Shown piece after piece: positions 18,402 to 33,628 of a DNA stretch of 64,000 nt. The notes beneath the pieces are model-generated. The model did not search any database. It was not told where the DNA came from and was given only the letters and a program-made list of their open reading frames with translations. Numbering within the stretch: position 1 is the first letter of the stretch; each line of letters starts with the position of its first letter. The translations under genes were made by a program, and so were the position numbers. The stretch covers positions 1-64,000 of the forward strand of contig JAJECH010000059.1 in NCBI GenBank assembly GCA_022822135.1. The letters run 5' to 3'. The DNA is from Pseudomonadales bacterium (GTDB taxonomy: Bacteria > Pseudomonadota > Gammaproteobacteria > Pseudomonadales > Azotimanducaceae).

Positions 18402-19358
18402 TCACGCGGTGGCGGCGTTCTCTACCAAGTCTGCCCACGACAACTCCACCTTCGAAAAGCGCATGGCAATCTGGGACATCTGCGCGACCGTGTGGAGTTC
18501 ACGCAGGTTGCGACGTTCGGCGTACTCTTTCACGTAGCGATCCAGGTGCTTCTGCGAGAACTTGTGGTAGATCCCGACGTACCGGCGTTTCAGCATCGAC
18601 CGGAACGACTCGATCCCGTTCGTATGGGCCTGGTCGCGGACATATTCGCCGCTGCCGTGCTGAACCGCTTCGTGGGGCTTTGGCAAGTCGGCGTAAGTCG
18701 CTAATTCGTCGGAATACACGGTCGCAACCGATCAGACGTTCTCTGCCAGATAACCCTGTACTTCGTCCTTCTTGGTATCGTCAACCGCTTCCGCGTGCAC
18801 ATGTCCGGTCGCACGATCCCGAATCCCGACGACGGGCCACTTGTCGTCCACGCCCCGCTTGCCATCGCGTTGGGAGGCATGTCGACTCTTGGCTTTACCG
18901 CCGATGTAGGTCTCGTCGATCTCGACCGGTCCCATCAATAAGCGGTCGTCGCCGACGGCGAACGCCGCACGGATGCGATGACCTAAGTGCCAGGCGGATT
19001 TCTGCGTGATGCCGAGATCGCGCGCCAGTTTCGTACTGGCCACGCCCTTCAAGCTCGTCAGAATCTGATAGATGGCGGCCGCCCAGATGCGGCAACCGAG
19101 TGGGGAGCGATGCATGACGGAGTTGGTCTTTACGTAAAAGTAGCGACGGCAGTCACGACACCAGTAAGGCATCGGTCGACGATTTGCGCGTTCAGCGACA
19201 CGGGCCGAGTCACAATGCGCGCTCCGTACGCCATCCGACCAGCAACGTGCCACAAACCAGGCTTCCGCCGCGGCTTCGTCCGGCGCAAATTCATCCATGA
19301 ACTGTGCAAGTGACATCACTTCGCGTGAACGTCGTGCGTCGCGTAAGCGGACTTTCAT
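18402..19358 (-). pseudogene. IS1595-family (ISXO2-like) transposase interrupted by one in-frame TGA
   Basis: The reading frame gives a full-length ISXO2-type transposase of about 318 codons with a single stop, TGA at 18732-18734 (minus strand), between LAENV and SVATVYSDELATY. Both sides are in the same frame, so one base change explains the break. Visible parts are a zinc-ribbon-like N-terminus with CRDCRRYF, a helix-turn-helix region, VEIDETYIGGK (first catalytic D), VYSDE (second) and HTNGIESFRSMLKRRYVGIYHK (the N/E region of the family). The element is inactive unless TGA is read through. I could not find its terminal repeats. Confidence 0.85.
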
Positions 19359-31232: not shown

Positions 31233-32000
31233 TCAGAGGCTTGAAACGACGCCACTACCAAGAATCTTGCTAGAGACTTTGGGGGTTCCTTCGTAGGATA
31301 CATCACCAGAACCGGTTATGGCTACGTTGAGAGTTTCCGACGCGTGAACTTGCGCGTCCCCAGCGCCAGTAACCTTAATCTCGGTTACGGTCGACTGTAG
31401 CCCCTTCCCTCTAAAGTCGCCACTCCCAACCAATTTGACTTCGCTTGTTGTCGTCGTGCCGCTCTCAATGGAGATATCGCCAGAACCATTAATTGAGGCA
31501 GAGAAATCGTCGAATTCACCCTCTTTTATTGAGATATCTCCGGCACCATTTACTTTGAAGTTGATCTTCTCGGAATTAATAGCGCCTATGTCAATGTCTC
31601 CCGCACCATTGATCGCGACGTTTAACTCTGGCACCGTTAGGTCCTTCGCAGCCACTCGACCGCCACTCGACATAGCTAATCTTTCAATCGTGCGGAAGTA
31701 GATCTTTCCTTCAATTTTGGGATATGGCCGACTACATCGAACACTAAATCCACAATCTTGACTCAGCTCCAGCGTATCTCCTCGAACCCTTATCCCCAAA
31801 TCCTCTGATTTACCAGCCACGAGGTTCAGTTCAACACGGTGCTCGTCGCTCTGCACGAGCTCGATGGACCCACCGACGGATACGCTTATCTTGGTAAACT
31901 CAGCAACTTCTCGGTATAGCTCTTTTGCCGCGATCCCTCCTGAAGCGAAAACGAGAGCAACTACGATAAGCAAGCGTTTAAAGGTTGAGAAGCACAACAT
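31233..32000 (-). CDS. DUF2807 (GIN-domain) secreted beta-helix-like protein
   Basis: 255 residues with a Sec signal (KRLLIVVALVFASGGIAA). The mature part is built from repeated strands with the recurring GAGDI/GSGDI motif (INGAGDIDI, VNGAGDISI, INGSGDISI, VTGAGDAQV), the hallmark of the DUF2807 right-handed beta-helix, found in envelope proteins of unknown function. A tnpB-bearing element is inserted 63 bp before its start codon, so its original promoter, if farther than that, has been moved 1.4 kb away. Confidence 0.88.
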   Translation of the reverse strand: MLCFSTFKRLLIVVALVFASGGIAAKELYREVAEFTKISVSVGGSIELVQSDEHRVELNLVAGKSEDLGIRVRGDTLELSQDCGFSVRCSRPYPKIEGKIYFRTIERLAMSSGGRVAAKDLTVPELNVAINGAGDIDIGAINSEKINFKVNGAGDISIKEGEFDDFSASINGSGDISIESGTTTTSEVKLVGSGDFRGKGLQSTVTEIKVTGAGDAQVHASETLNVAITGSGDVSYEGTPKVSSKILGSGVVSSL

Positions 32001-32054
32001 CGGCGTAACATTGATTGGATAGATGCTAAATAGACACGACTCACACTAAATAGT

Positions 32055-32077
32055 TAGTGTTTGGCTCTTATATATTT
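32055..32077. repeat. left target-site duplication and left terminal inverted repeat
   Basis: TAGTGTTT (32055-32062) is followed by GGCTCTTATATATTT (32063-32077). The target itself lies in a small palindrome, ACACTAAatagTTAGTGT (32043-32060), upstream of the DUF2807 gene. Confidence 0.85.
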
Positions 32078-32123
32078 GGTTGTTGCTTTCAAATCGCGGT
32101 GGATTCGAAGCTGACGTAAGTCA

Positions 32124-32148
32124 TTGATTGTGCATACCTTTGGCACAA
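32124..32148 (+). other. TTGAT motif and hairpin resembling an IS200/IS605 left end
   Basis: TTGAT (32124-32128) is followed at once by TTGTGC...GCACAA (32128-32133 with 32143-32148), a 6-bp stem with a 9-base loop. TTGAT is a known target-adjacent motif of TnpB nucleases such as that of ISDra2. This could be the relic of the left end of an IS1341-like unit captured inside the larger element. It may also be chance. Confidence 0.35.
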
Positions 32149-32187
32149 CGCTAGTTGGTCGATTCCGCGACAATTCGTCATGCGCAC

Positions 32188-33420
32188 ATGCACATCTCAG
32201 CTTATGCTTGGGCGGTGAGAACGTACACCTATAAAGCCAAGCTCAACGCGCACACGCATCGGAACCTTGCCGAGTTTCTGACACAACAACGCCTTCTCTA
32301 CAACGGCGCGCTGCAGGAACGGATCGACTGTTATCAGAAAAAGGGTGAGAGCATCGGTCTCTACGACCAGCGTGGTTCCCTGACGACCCTTCGCCGTGAG
32401 GACGAGTGGTTTCGGAAGTTCGACCGGTGGTGTCAGGATTCGGCGTTGGTCCGGGTCGAACGGGCGTTCAAGCGTTTCTTCCGGCAAGGTCGCGGGTTCC
32501 CGCGGTTCAAGTCGTATAAGCGTGGGGTGCAGTCGTTTGAGACCTTGCACAAGAAACCCACCTTCAATGGCAAGTACGGGTACGTGAAGCTCAAGGGCAT
32601 TGGTCGGTTTCGGTGGCGCCAGGACCATCGGTGCGATGATCGAACCAAGGTCAAAGTCCTCCGTGTCGTGCAACGACCGACCGGCGTCTTTATCCAGTTG
32701 GTCTGTGACGACAAGCCCCAACGTCTCGGCTTGAATCAAGCCATCGGGATTGATGTCGGGGTGCACCTCCGTGCGGCCTTGTCCGATGGCACGGTGTTCC
32801 CACGTCATACGCCTGACCGCGCTGACATCCGCCGCAAGCAACGTGCCTTGAATCGCTGCGAAGCCGGTTCGAACGGTCGCAAGAAACGACGGCAGACATT
32901 AGCAAAGGCGTGTTATCGCGCACGCGTCCGTCGTCACAACGACCTGCACCGTCTCACGAGCGAGATCGTGAAGCATCATGGCAAGTGGATCGCAGTGGAA
33001 GACCTAGATATCCAGGCCATGACGGCTTCGGCCGCGGGGACGGCGGAGTCCCCAGGATGTCAGGTCAAGCAGAAGGTCGGCTTGAATCGCTCGATCCTCG
33101 AGCAGAACTGGGGCATGTTCATTTCTCAACTCGATTACAAGGCTGCAAGCGCCGGTGGTCAGTTGGTGCGCGTCGATCCTAAGCACACCACGCAACGGTG
33201 CTCGAGTTGCGGTGGTTTACCAAACAAGGCGTTGACGTTGAACGATCGTTGGTACGAATGCACGCATTGCGGGTATCGTGACGACCGCGACGTGAACGCC
33301 GCAAAGAATGTGTTGCTCAAGGGGCTTGCGCTCTTTGATGCGGGTGGCTCTCTTCCCGCAGTGTCGGCAACAGGAAGACAGAATCAGGACATGGGTCCTG
33401 ATCGACACGGAACCGTGTAA
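32188..33420 (+). CDS. tnpB: TnpB, RNA-guided nuclease family (OrfB of IS605/IS1341 type)
   Basis: About 410 residues from the ATG at 32188; an upstream TTG frame extends to 32155. The RuvC-like catalytic acids are all present: D in AIGIDVGVHLRAALSDG, E in WIAVEDLDIQAM, and D in YRDDRDVNAAKNVL. A zinc ribbon (CSSCGG ... CTHCGY) lies between the last two. The N-terminal half has the basic AFKRFFRQGRGFPRFKSYK typical of TnpB. The intact active site suggests a working nuclease guided by an RNA from its own 3' end. It is GC-richer than its neighbours. No TnpA (HUH transposase) accompanies it. It is the only gene in an element with inverted terminal repeats. Confidence 0.93.
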   Translation: MHISAYAWAVRTYTYKAKLNAHTHRNLAEFLTQQRLLYNGALQERIDCYQKKGESIGLYDQRGSLTTLRREDEWFRKFDRWCQDSALVRVERAFKRFFRQGRGFPRFKSYKRGVQSFETLHKKPTFNGKYGYVKLKGIGRFRWRQDHRCDDRTKVKVLRVVQRPTGVFIQLVCDDKPQRLGLNQAIGIDVGVHLRAALSDGTVFPRHTPDRADIRRKQRALNRCEAGSNGRKKRRQTLAKACYRARVRRHNDLHRLTSEIVKHHGKWIAVEDLDIQAMTASAAGTAESPGCQVKQKVGLNRSILEQNWGMFISQLDYKAASAGGQLVRVDPKHTTQRCSSCGGLPNKALTLNDRWYECTHCGYRDDRDVNAAKNVLLKGLALFDAGGSLPAVSATGRQNQDMGPDRHGTV

Positions 33421-33438
33421 CCAGTGTGGAAACCACAC
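33385..33438 (+). ncRNA. probable omegaRNA (reRNA) 3' scaffold with three hairpins
   Basis: Three exact hairpins follow one another across the end of tnpB: CAGGACatggGTCCTG (33385-33400), ACACGGaaCCGTGT (33405-33418, overlapping the stop) and GTGTGGaaaCCACAC (33424-33438). OmegaRNAs of TnpB systems are made from this position and place their guide just beyond the element end. The 5' extent cannot be fixed by eye; it would lie within the last 100-200 bases of tnpB. Confidence 0.55.
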
Positions 33439-33440
33439 AG

Positions 33441-33463
33441 AAATATACAAGAGCCTAGTGTTT
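33441..33463. repeat. right terminal inverted repeat and right target-site duplication
   Basis: AAATATACAAGAGCC (33441-33455) is the complement of the left end with one mismatch and is followed directly by TAGTGTTT (33456-33463), the exact copy of the left flank. Confidence 0.85.
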
Positions 33464-33628
33464 AAAGTGCTCCGAATTGAACGTAGCGACGAACCGTCTG
33501 ACCTTATATAAACGGGCAATGAAAAACAATAGTTGAAATAACTGATTGATCTAAGACGATCTTATTGTAGTTCGCTTCGTCTCAAAAACTGATCTATCGC
33601 CGGTAATCGACGCGGTATCTGGGCTTTA

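Follow-up and report, generated by a model that had tools for sequence, protein, structure and literature searches.

The question raised by this locus is how a tnpB gene came to be carried by an element whose ends belong to a different type of transposon. The locus lies in a stretch of 64,000 nt from a Pseudomonadales bacterium (hereafter the window, whose coordinates are used throughout), and the genome that holds it (hereafter the home genome) comprises 3.75 Mb in 63 contigs and is 97.6% complete. In one survey, bacterial TnpB elements were sorted into IS605, IS607 and IS1341 (PMC9956272; this and the other papers are cited from excerpts). IS200/IS605 elements are described without inverted terminal repeats and target duplications in the excerpt of PMC3627910, and IS607 elements likewise in that of PMC6188088, in agreement with the original prediction for this locus. 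The tnpB element in the window has both features, and since they are present it does not fall into IS200/IS605, IS1341 or IS607. We consider it probable, at roughly 65%, that the element represents a non-autonomous family with ISL3-type ends which was moved in trans by a DDE transposase, captured a working TnpB and made its right inverted repeat a part of the guide RNA.

The whole element was found on the forward strand at positions 32063 to 33455 (1393 bp), with tnpB as its sole gene and no transposase gene inside, and its ends are common to about twenty insertion sites of the home genome. The left inverted repeat of 15 bp (GGCTCTTATATATTT, 32063 to 32077, forward strand) and the right inverted repeat (GGCTCTTGTATATTT, 33441 to 33455, reverse strand) match at 14 of 15 positions, and an exact 8-bp duplication, TAGTGTTT, is located at both outer edges (32055 to 32062 and 33456 to 33463). 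The ends, the duplication and the single gene between them had all been described in the original prediction and were seen again here. Within the window alone, a loose search for the ends (up to three mismatches) gave two matches where 1.7 were expected, which is no more than chance; we take the element to be real because its ends and duplications recur in other copies, and not because of the window alone.

A total of 23 DNA matches to the element, including the window copy, were found in the home genome. They are 81-98% identical to the window copy, with some reaching 97-98% across 164-226 bases, and the end pattern has 21 exact matches. At the protein level 32 matches were found: 20 with an identity of 89-100%, among them the window copy, and a further 12 that are small fragments or more distantly related TnpBs; 30 of the 32 contain no internal stop, many of them being partial. 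Many of the copies in the home genome are cut off by contig ends. When 13 left and 11 right 8-bp flanks were compared, six exact matches were observed among the 143 combinations (TAAGAGAT, TTAGTATT, TAAGACGA, TAAATCAT, TTAGGGAA and TTGCCGAA, all across contigs) against 0.08 expected from the position composition of the flanks, which brings the exact duplications in this genome to seven when the window is counted.

The original prediction had proposed that related genomes be searched for these ends with 8-bp duplications, and they were indeed found in several sister species. Elements 81-82% identical occur in three genomes of the same genus (G024, G027 and G028), and more diverged or broken ones in G022 and G012. 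Seven elements of the sister species have both ends, so that nine elements in all, home genome included, have both ends on one contig. An exact duplication was observed in five of the nine (window, G028b, G024b, G024c and G027a) and a duplication with one mismatch in two (G028a and G024a). Both ends are known for 15 elements or pairs of joined contigs; the duplication is exact in 11 of them, has one mismatch in two and is absent from two. The element is thus a multicopy mobile family and not a one-off. A protein search across 390 genomes of the order (E <= 1e-50) gave matches in the home genome only, which says little as G012, G022, G024, G027 and G028 are outside the genomes listed.

A complete copy on another contig of the home genome (L003, C60:184125-185517) has unlike 8-bp flanks, the left one being identical to the right flank of the copy on C8; either recombination between copies or an assembly join could account for this. 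On C62 (L017, positions 8431 and 8530), one tnpB element is nested within another, 99 bases from the left end of the latter, with TTCAAGTA as left flank. Copies of tnpB from different species, on C28 of the home genome (L149) and C51 of G027 (L065), adjoin the similar host sequence GAGTCCAYACC, and their tips are altered alike (TTCTCTT), the host being contacted by the right end in one case and by the left end in the other.

The left flank of the window element was searched in 18 genomes of the same genus, and three matched besides the home genome (G028, G024 and G027). In each of these, the two host genes that flank the element adjoin each other and the element is absent. When the window flanks are joined, a single TAGTGTTT is obtained which aligns to TAGTTTTT or TAGTTTCG in the relatives, and the anticipated empty site with a single copy of the duplication is therefore present in three species. 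Continuous flanks lacking an empty-site counterpart, and homologous tnpB genes flanked elsewhere by IS605-type ends, had been named beforehand as observations that would speak against the prediction; the flanks have the counterpart just described, and the homologous genes at other positions carry inverted ends of the same kind and 8-bp duplications.

These results make it scarcely credible that the locus is an ordinary tnpB-only IS200/IS605 or IS607 element which is moved by TnpA and has its ends and duplications by coincidence. Elements of that kind are common (PMC9956272, excerpt), and seven other TnpB loci in the home genome have no such ends (best score 14.1 when scanned, compared with 23.7-27.5 for four decayed true ends). 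However, the absence of inverted ends and duplications in those families (PMC3627910, excerpt), the exact and one-mismatch duplications counted above and the single-copy empty site already contradict this explanation.

The protein itself is clearly assignable. It scores 220 bits against the NCBIfam model guided_TnpB (cut-off 100), is filed as a bacterial TnpB by NCBIfam, and is above the cut-off for the Pfam families Cas12f1-like_TNB and OrfB_IS605. An alignment with ISDra2 TnpB spans the RuvC motifs and the zinc ribbon, in line with the catalytic acids and zinc ribbon noted originally. The gene, on the forward strand, most likely starts at a GTG at 32215, as judged from comparison with the sister species, and ends at 33420 (401 codons), while the list of open reading frames starts it at a TTG at 32155. 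Seven sister copies, whose reading frames have 388-431 codons, were compared with the window copy, which gave a ratio of nonsynonymous to synonymous substitution rates (dN/dS) of 0.12-0.16, or 0.10-0.13 when the last 50 codons are left out, at dS values of 0.75-0.94; the C60 copy was excluded, as the start motif was not found in it. These values indicate that tnpB is under purifying selection and that the protein is kept by selection.

The 3' end of the gene is also where the guide RNA (right-element RNA, reRNA) would be encoded. A common structure for the last 130 bases of 24 copies (23 distinct rows) from six genomes pairs 98.8% of cells compared with 86.8% in shuffles. A hairpin of the form GCGGG-loop-CCCGC (33340 to 33359, forward strand) lies within the tnpB 3' end, and the GGCTCT in its loop (33346 to 33351) is predicted to form a pseudoknot with AGAGCC (33450 to 33455), which comprises the last six bases of the element and hence the outer six bases of the right inverted repeat. 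The predicted last stem of the reRNA, GTGTGG..CCACAC (33424 to 33438), shares bases with the inner TGTGG of the right end.

The letters of the two pseudoknot strands were found to change together. Ten of 11 loops in the home genome read GGCTCT, with the partner AGAGCC; in the sister species the loop reads GGCGCT in six of seven copies and GGTTCT in one, with the partner AGCGCC in five and TGCGCC in two. G022 has GGCTCG with GGAGCC, and all five G012 copies have GGGAGT with ACTCCC. For the pseudoknot alone, 96.4% of cells are paired (76.3% in shuffles), 21 double-sided changes are seen (6.4 in shuffles) and the covariation score is 0.447 (0.100 in shuffles), none of these values being reached in 500 shuffles. 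One position shows UA, GC and AU, and pairing falls to 41-54% when the partner is slid by one to three columns. The helix was predicted first from 18 rows that did not include G012, so that the G012 rows, which fit with other letters, served as a fresh test. In addition, six of the seven left ends in the sister species are without the G that is common to the right end and the loop, which argues for RNA pairing over a mere likeness of the two ends. A pseudoknot reaching the 3' end of the scaffold, as expected for a TnpB reRNA, is therefore predicted here with support from covariation. In ISDra2, positions -5..-3 pair with -103..-105 in such a pseudoknot (PMC10097598, excerpt), and in ISXfa1 the pseudoknot is required for activity (PMC10711439, excerpt). 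A search of positions 31900 to 33600 against Rfam gave no match at E values up to 1. The alignments thus support a double role for the tip of the right inverted repeat, as transposon end and as a predicted strand of the reRNA pseudoknot.

A second line of evidence comes from the insertion sites. Thirty sites were counted after the decayed ends (home C28, the left end of G027b, G024 C28:132867 and C28:43087, and G027 C116 and C17) and all sites of G012, which is another lineage, had been left out. At all 30 the duplication begins with T followed by A or T, whereas it ends in A at only 14 (Fisher 2e-6 against the first base). Of the 21 sites with a known left flank, 20 have A or T directly before the duplication and 20 have A or G one base further out; the motif R-W-T (R being A or G, and W being A or T) stands at the left edge of 20, the exception being C62a of the home genome; the mirror motif stands at the right edge of 5 of 22. 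Among sites with two flanks known, RWT was observed on the left in 13 of 13 and its mirror on the right in 1 of 13 (sign-flip p 0.0003). In the window, the motif reads GTT (32053 to 32055, forward strand) and crosses the left edge of the duplication, whose first T is read as its last base.

This oriented motif is what a target-adjacent motif (TAM) would leave behind, and we infer that RWT is the TAM of this TnpB. The final two bases are CC in each of the 24 aligned right ends, and because this places CC before the duplicated T, an occupied site reads CCT and not RWT. If the numbering of ISDra2 holds, the invariant T would be a scaffold base between the pseudoknot and the guide. The predicted guide of 16 nt would then be taken from the right flank (33457 to 33472, forward strand), starting at the second base of the duplication, as suggested by the position of the pseudoknot, the 30 sites and the ISDra2 numbering. 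The original suggestion that TnpB might cut empty sites gains support from the oriented motif and the covarying pseudoknot.

The same asymmetry could arise if TnpB were a mere passenger and an ISL3-type transposase moved the element with an oriented preference of its own, which we regard as unlikely. A preference of this kind is conceivable, as the TAM of IS200/IS605 elements is the target motif of their transposase (PMC11870625, excerpt), and the left and right ends of the present element do differ inside. A transposase that handles both ends alike should, on the other hand, leave a palindromic target preference. ISL3 elements of the same bacterial family, with flanks read by eye, have T as first base in 1 of 10 sites and RWT in none of 4 (Fisher 4e-8 and 4e-4); a weak left-end match (L184, 19 of 28 letters) was left out, and its site has neither T nor RWT. 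In plasmid ISL3 elements T was found at two and RWT at one of six sites, with three sites being palindromic. Purifying selection on tnpB and the covariation of the pseudoknot likewise suggest that the nuclease was kept working.

A similar element is present in the more distant relative G012, its tnpB being 66-68% identical at the nucleotide level and its end reading GGGAGTTATATAC. Exact 8-bp duplications were found across contigs (ATAGATAA, C174/C180; AATAATTT, C124/C181) and on one contig (AAAAATTG), and of 18 matches to the end pattern, nine lie in tnpB copies or relics and the other nine outside assigned copies. RG precedes the duplication in all four sites with a known left flank. The oriented motif therefore appears to differ between lineages, as a TAM would, although only a small number of sites is available and the transposase could have diverged as well; the different motif, accompanied by diverged ends and a diverged TnpB, would fit a passenger equally well. 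One G012 locus (L154:1501-1726, on C24) is a 226-bp derivative with an internal deletion, intact ends and exact AAAAATTG duplications, which either moved in its deleted form or lost its middle after insertion. At another (L176:2441-4042, on C124), an IS110-type element lies within a tnpB element, 18 bases from its left end, and the end on C112 (L160) is followed by similar sequence.

As for the transposase, the original prediction had named ISL3 and IS1595 as candidate DDE families, and the ends were found to fit ISL3 better. An ISL3 element from the same bacterial family (L091, in G057) has the ends GGCTCTTCCGGGTTTTGTTTGG and GGCGCTTCGGGATTACGTGTGG, which start with GGCTCTT/GGCGCTT and contain an inner TTTGG/TGTGG motif, together with an 8-bp duplication. 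The tnpB elements have the GGCTCTT start in common with it, and those of the sister species mostly have GGCTC on the left and GGCGC on the right, which is the polarity of L091. A TGTGG motif near base 20 is present in the right ends and in the left ends of the sister species, whereas the type-A left ends of the home genome keep the GGCTCTT start and have TTGTTG in place of the inner motif. This likeness was judged by eye against L091, L098 and the plasmid ISL3 ends and not by a family-wide profile. Six of nine plasmid ISL3 elements have readable ends (GGGTCTTC, GGCTCTCC, GGTTCTTC and similar) with an 8-bp duplication and three have none, in a search limited to elements whose duplication had no more than one mismatch. 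The tnpB element has both inverted ends of the ISL3 type and the 8-bp target duplication. The ISL3 elements on three of the plasmids (L134, L140 and L142, one annotated as ISCfr12) lie in TACTGT-N8-ACAG sites, which we take to resemble LexA boxes.

A DDE transposase of another family that likewise generates 8-bp duplications, be it IS1595 or an undescribed family, is quite an unlikely driver. It finds some favour in the ten IS1595 matches of the home genome, of which one of five examined (L049 to L053) has readable ends and an 8-bp duplication, and in the fact that no ISL3 transposase was found in this assembly. The ends of that copy (L051) are GGGAAGTATGTCGATTAG, i.e. GGGAAGTATG[G/T]CGATTAG, and unlike GGCTCTTATATATTT, while the other four loci have no readable ends; IS1595 was set aside on this basis, the tnpB element having no IS1595-type ends as measured against this single copy. 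The start shared with L091 and its polarity in the sister species likewise favour ISL3. The window also holds an IS1595-type transposase remnant, broken into two reading frames (18402 to 19358).

Of 206 genomes of the bacterial family, 118 have a match above the cut-off of the ISL3 transposase profile PF01610 (DDE_Tnp_ISL3). In the home genome the profile matches the C-terminal tail of a fatty-acid desaturase (L001, C47:69647-69970), and many genomes of the family have a single match over the same stretch of the profile; this could reflect an old fusion or an annotation trap that is widespread. The other genomes of the genus, except G012, have at most one match each, over about the same stretch, these matches not having been read individually. 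No matching ends were found around the best ISL3 relic in G012. A PF01610 fragment near a GGGAGTTATATAC end on C112 of G012 was dropped as a possible driver since no second end was found there, and the extra DNA in another G012 element proved to be an IS110 copy. No full element with the same ends and a DDE transposase, as envisaged originally, was found in the home genome or the genus. A cut-and-paste transposase acting in trans, as originally proposed, is a likely reading of the ISL3-type ends and the 8-bp duplications; since no ISL3 transposase was found in the home genome, supply in trans is an inference, and the enzyme may be lost, unassembled or undescribed.

It is also possible, though we think it somewhat unlikely, that the element is now extinct, the transposase being gone and the copies only decaying; this would be compatible with our reading of the past mechanism. 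The failure to find the transposase in the home genome or genus, the 81-98% identity of the matches in the home genome and the decay of some ends are consistent with extinction. The protein matches, mostly free of internal stops even if many are partial, and the copies that are nearly identical over their short shared stretches argue against it. Moreover, repeats are often lost from metagenome assemblies, and a multicopy partner may simply be missing from this one.

Taken together, these observations suggest the following mechanism for the ISL3-ended family. A DDE enzyme, most likely of the ISL3 type, would act in trans on the inverted ends. The reRNA would be made from the tnpB 3' end, with its scaffold ending at the right tip or one base beyond and the guide read from the right flank. 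With RWT as the TAM, present in the empty site and absent from the occupied site, TnpB would cut unoccupied alleles such as sister chromosomes, other plasmid copies and repaired donor sites, and the element would be copied into the cut allele during repair. In this way, insertions that lie next to RWT and are correctly oriented would persist. Cutting of empty sites followed by copying through repair has been reported for IS605-type elements on plasmids (PMC11870625, excerpt). TnpB and its reRNA might go further and help to choose the insertion sites, either by marking RWT or because the DDE transposase requires the motif at integration. We consider this improbable; it is entertained because 30 of 30 T and 20 of 21 RWT exceed what survivorship alone easily gives.

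Several observations weigh against the reading that we favour. No ISL3 transposase was found in the home genome, where the desaturase tail is the sole PF01610 match, and further matches within the genus occur only in G012 and are decayed. Among the nine elements whose two ends share a contig, two have no matching duplication (the C60 copy, and G027b with its decayed left end), and three of the seven sister tnpB genes have an altered C-terminus (388, 422 and 431 codons). Two of the five pseudoknot measures are not above shuffles (double-change pairs, 283 of 500; further pair types, 445 of 500), a slide of -2 gives more double-change pairs (four against three) and further types (seven against five), and the rows stem from few lineages. 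Five of six G012 sites have A, not T, at the start of the duplication. Lastly, the ISL3 controls belong to another subgroup, and of the four with both ends read only L091 has a matching duplication; because of this, an oriented transposase could still account for the motif.

Close parallels are found in eukaryotes, where Fanzor proteins occur in elements with terminal inverted repeats (TIR) and target site duplications (TSD) (PMC3627910, excerpt), and where cut-and-paste transposons are described as having captured Fanzor2*, whose scaffold is predicted to include TIR and TSD (PMC10711439, excerpt). As in Fanzor1 and Fanzor2*, an RNA-guided nuclease, sometimes the only gene, is carried by a TIR element with target duplications, and the TIR and duplicated bases would form part of the reRNA scaffold (PMC10711439 and PMC3627910, excerpts). 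In contrast to Fanzor, the host and the TnpB are bacterial, the duplications are of 8 bp, the ends are ISL3-like, and the pseudoknot strand coincides and covaries with the tip of the inverted repeat. The protein is shared with IS200/IS605 and IS1341, and as in ISDra2 the 3' end of tnpB is part of the predicted reRNA, whose pseudoknot involves guide-adjacent bases (PMC10097598, excerpt). A fixed first base after the right end, here T, is also known from the IS607 element ISXfa1, where it belongs to the scaffold (PMC10711439, excerpt), but IS607 has a serine recombinase and neither inverted ends nor an 8-bp duplication. With L091 and other ISL3 elements, the family shares the GGCTCTT/GGCGCTT ends, the TGTGG-type inner motif (in the right ends and the sister left ends) and the 8-bp duplications; it differs from them by the absence of an ISL3 transposase inside, the oriented RWT target, the tnpB cargo and the TTGTTG of the type-A left ends in the home genome. 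A cargo gene between IS-type ends with no transposase is likewise found in mobile insertion cassettes and passenger-gene miniature inverted-repeat transposable elements (MITEs); a difference is that the cargo proposed here would act on the insertion site itself. No bacterial TIR/TSD TnpB element turned up in searches of a collection of open-access papers, from which most subscription journals are absent.

The observation from which this study started is thus real and its interpretation is supported as far as sequence comparison goes. The multicopy family with its empty site, the inverted repeat that appears to double as a covarying reRNA pseudoknot strand and the oriented target motif go beyond the original prediction. 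The capture of Fanzor by TIR transposons has been described for eukaryotes (PMC10711439 and PMC3627910, excerpts), and the corresponding step would here be visible in a few related bacteria, with the inverted repeat and the guide-RNA pseudoknot having changed together within a small bacterial group. This gives rise to the testable questions of whether a DDE transposase can be partnered with RNA-guided homing in the way the peel-and-paste TnpA is, and of how the boundary of a guide RNA adapts when the nuclease changes its transposon family. If the site-choice explanation were true, the element would be a bacterial DDE transposon with a nuclease-dependent choice of target and orientation.

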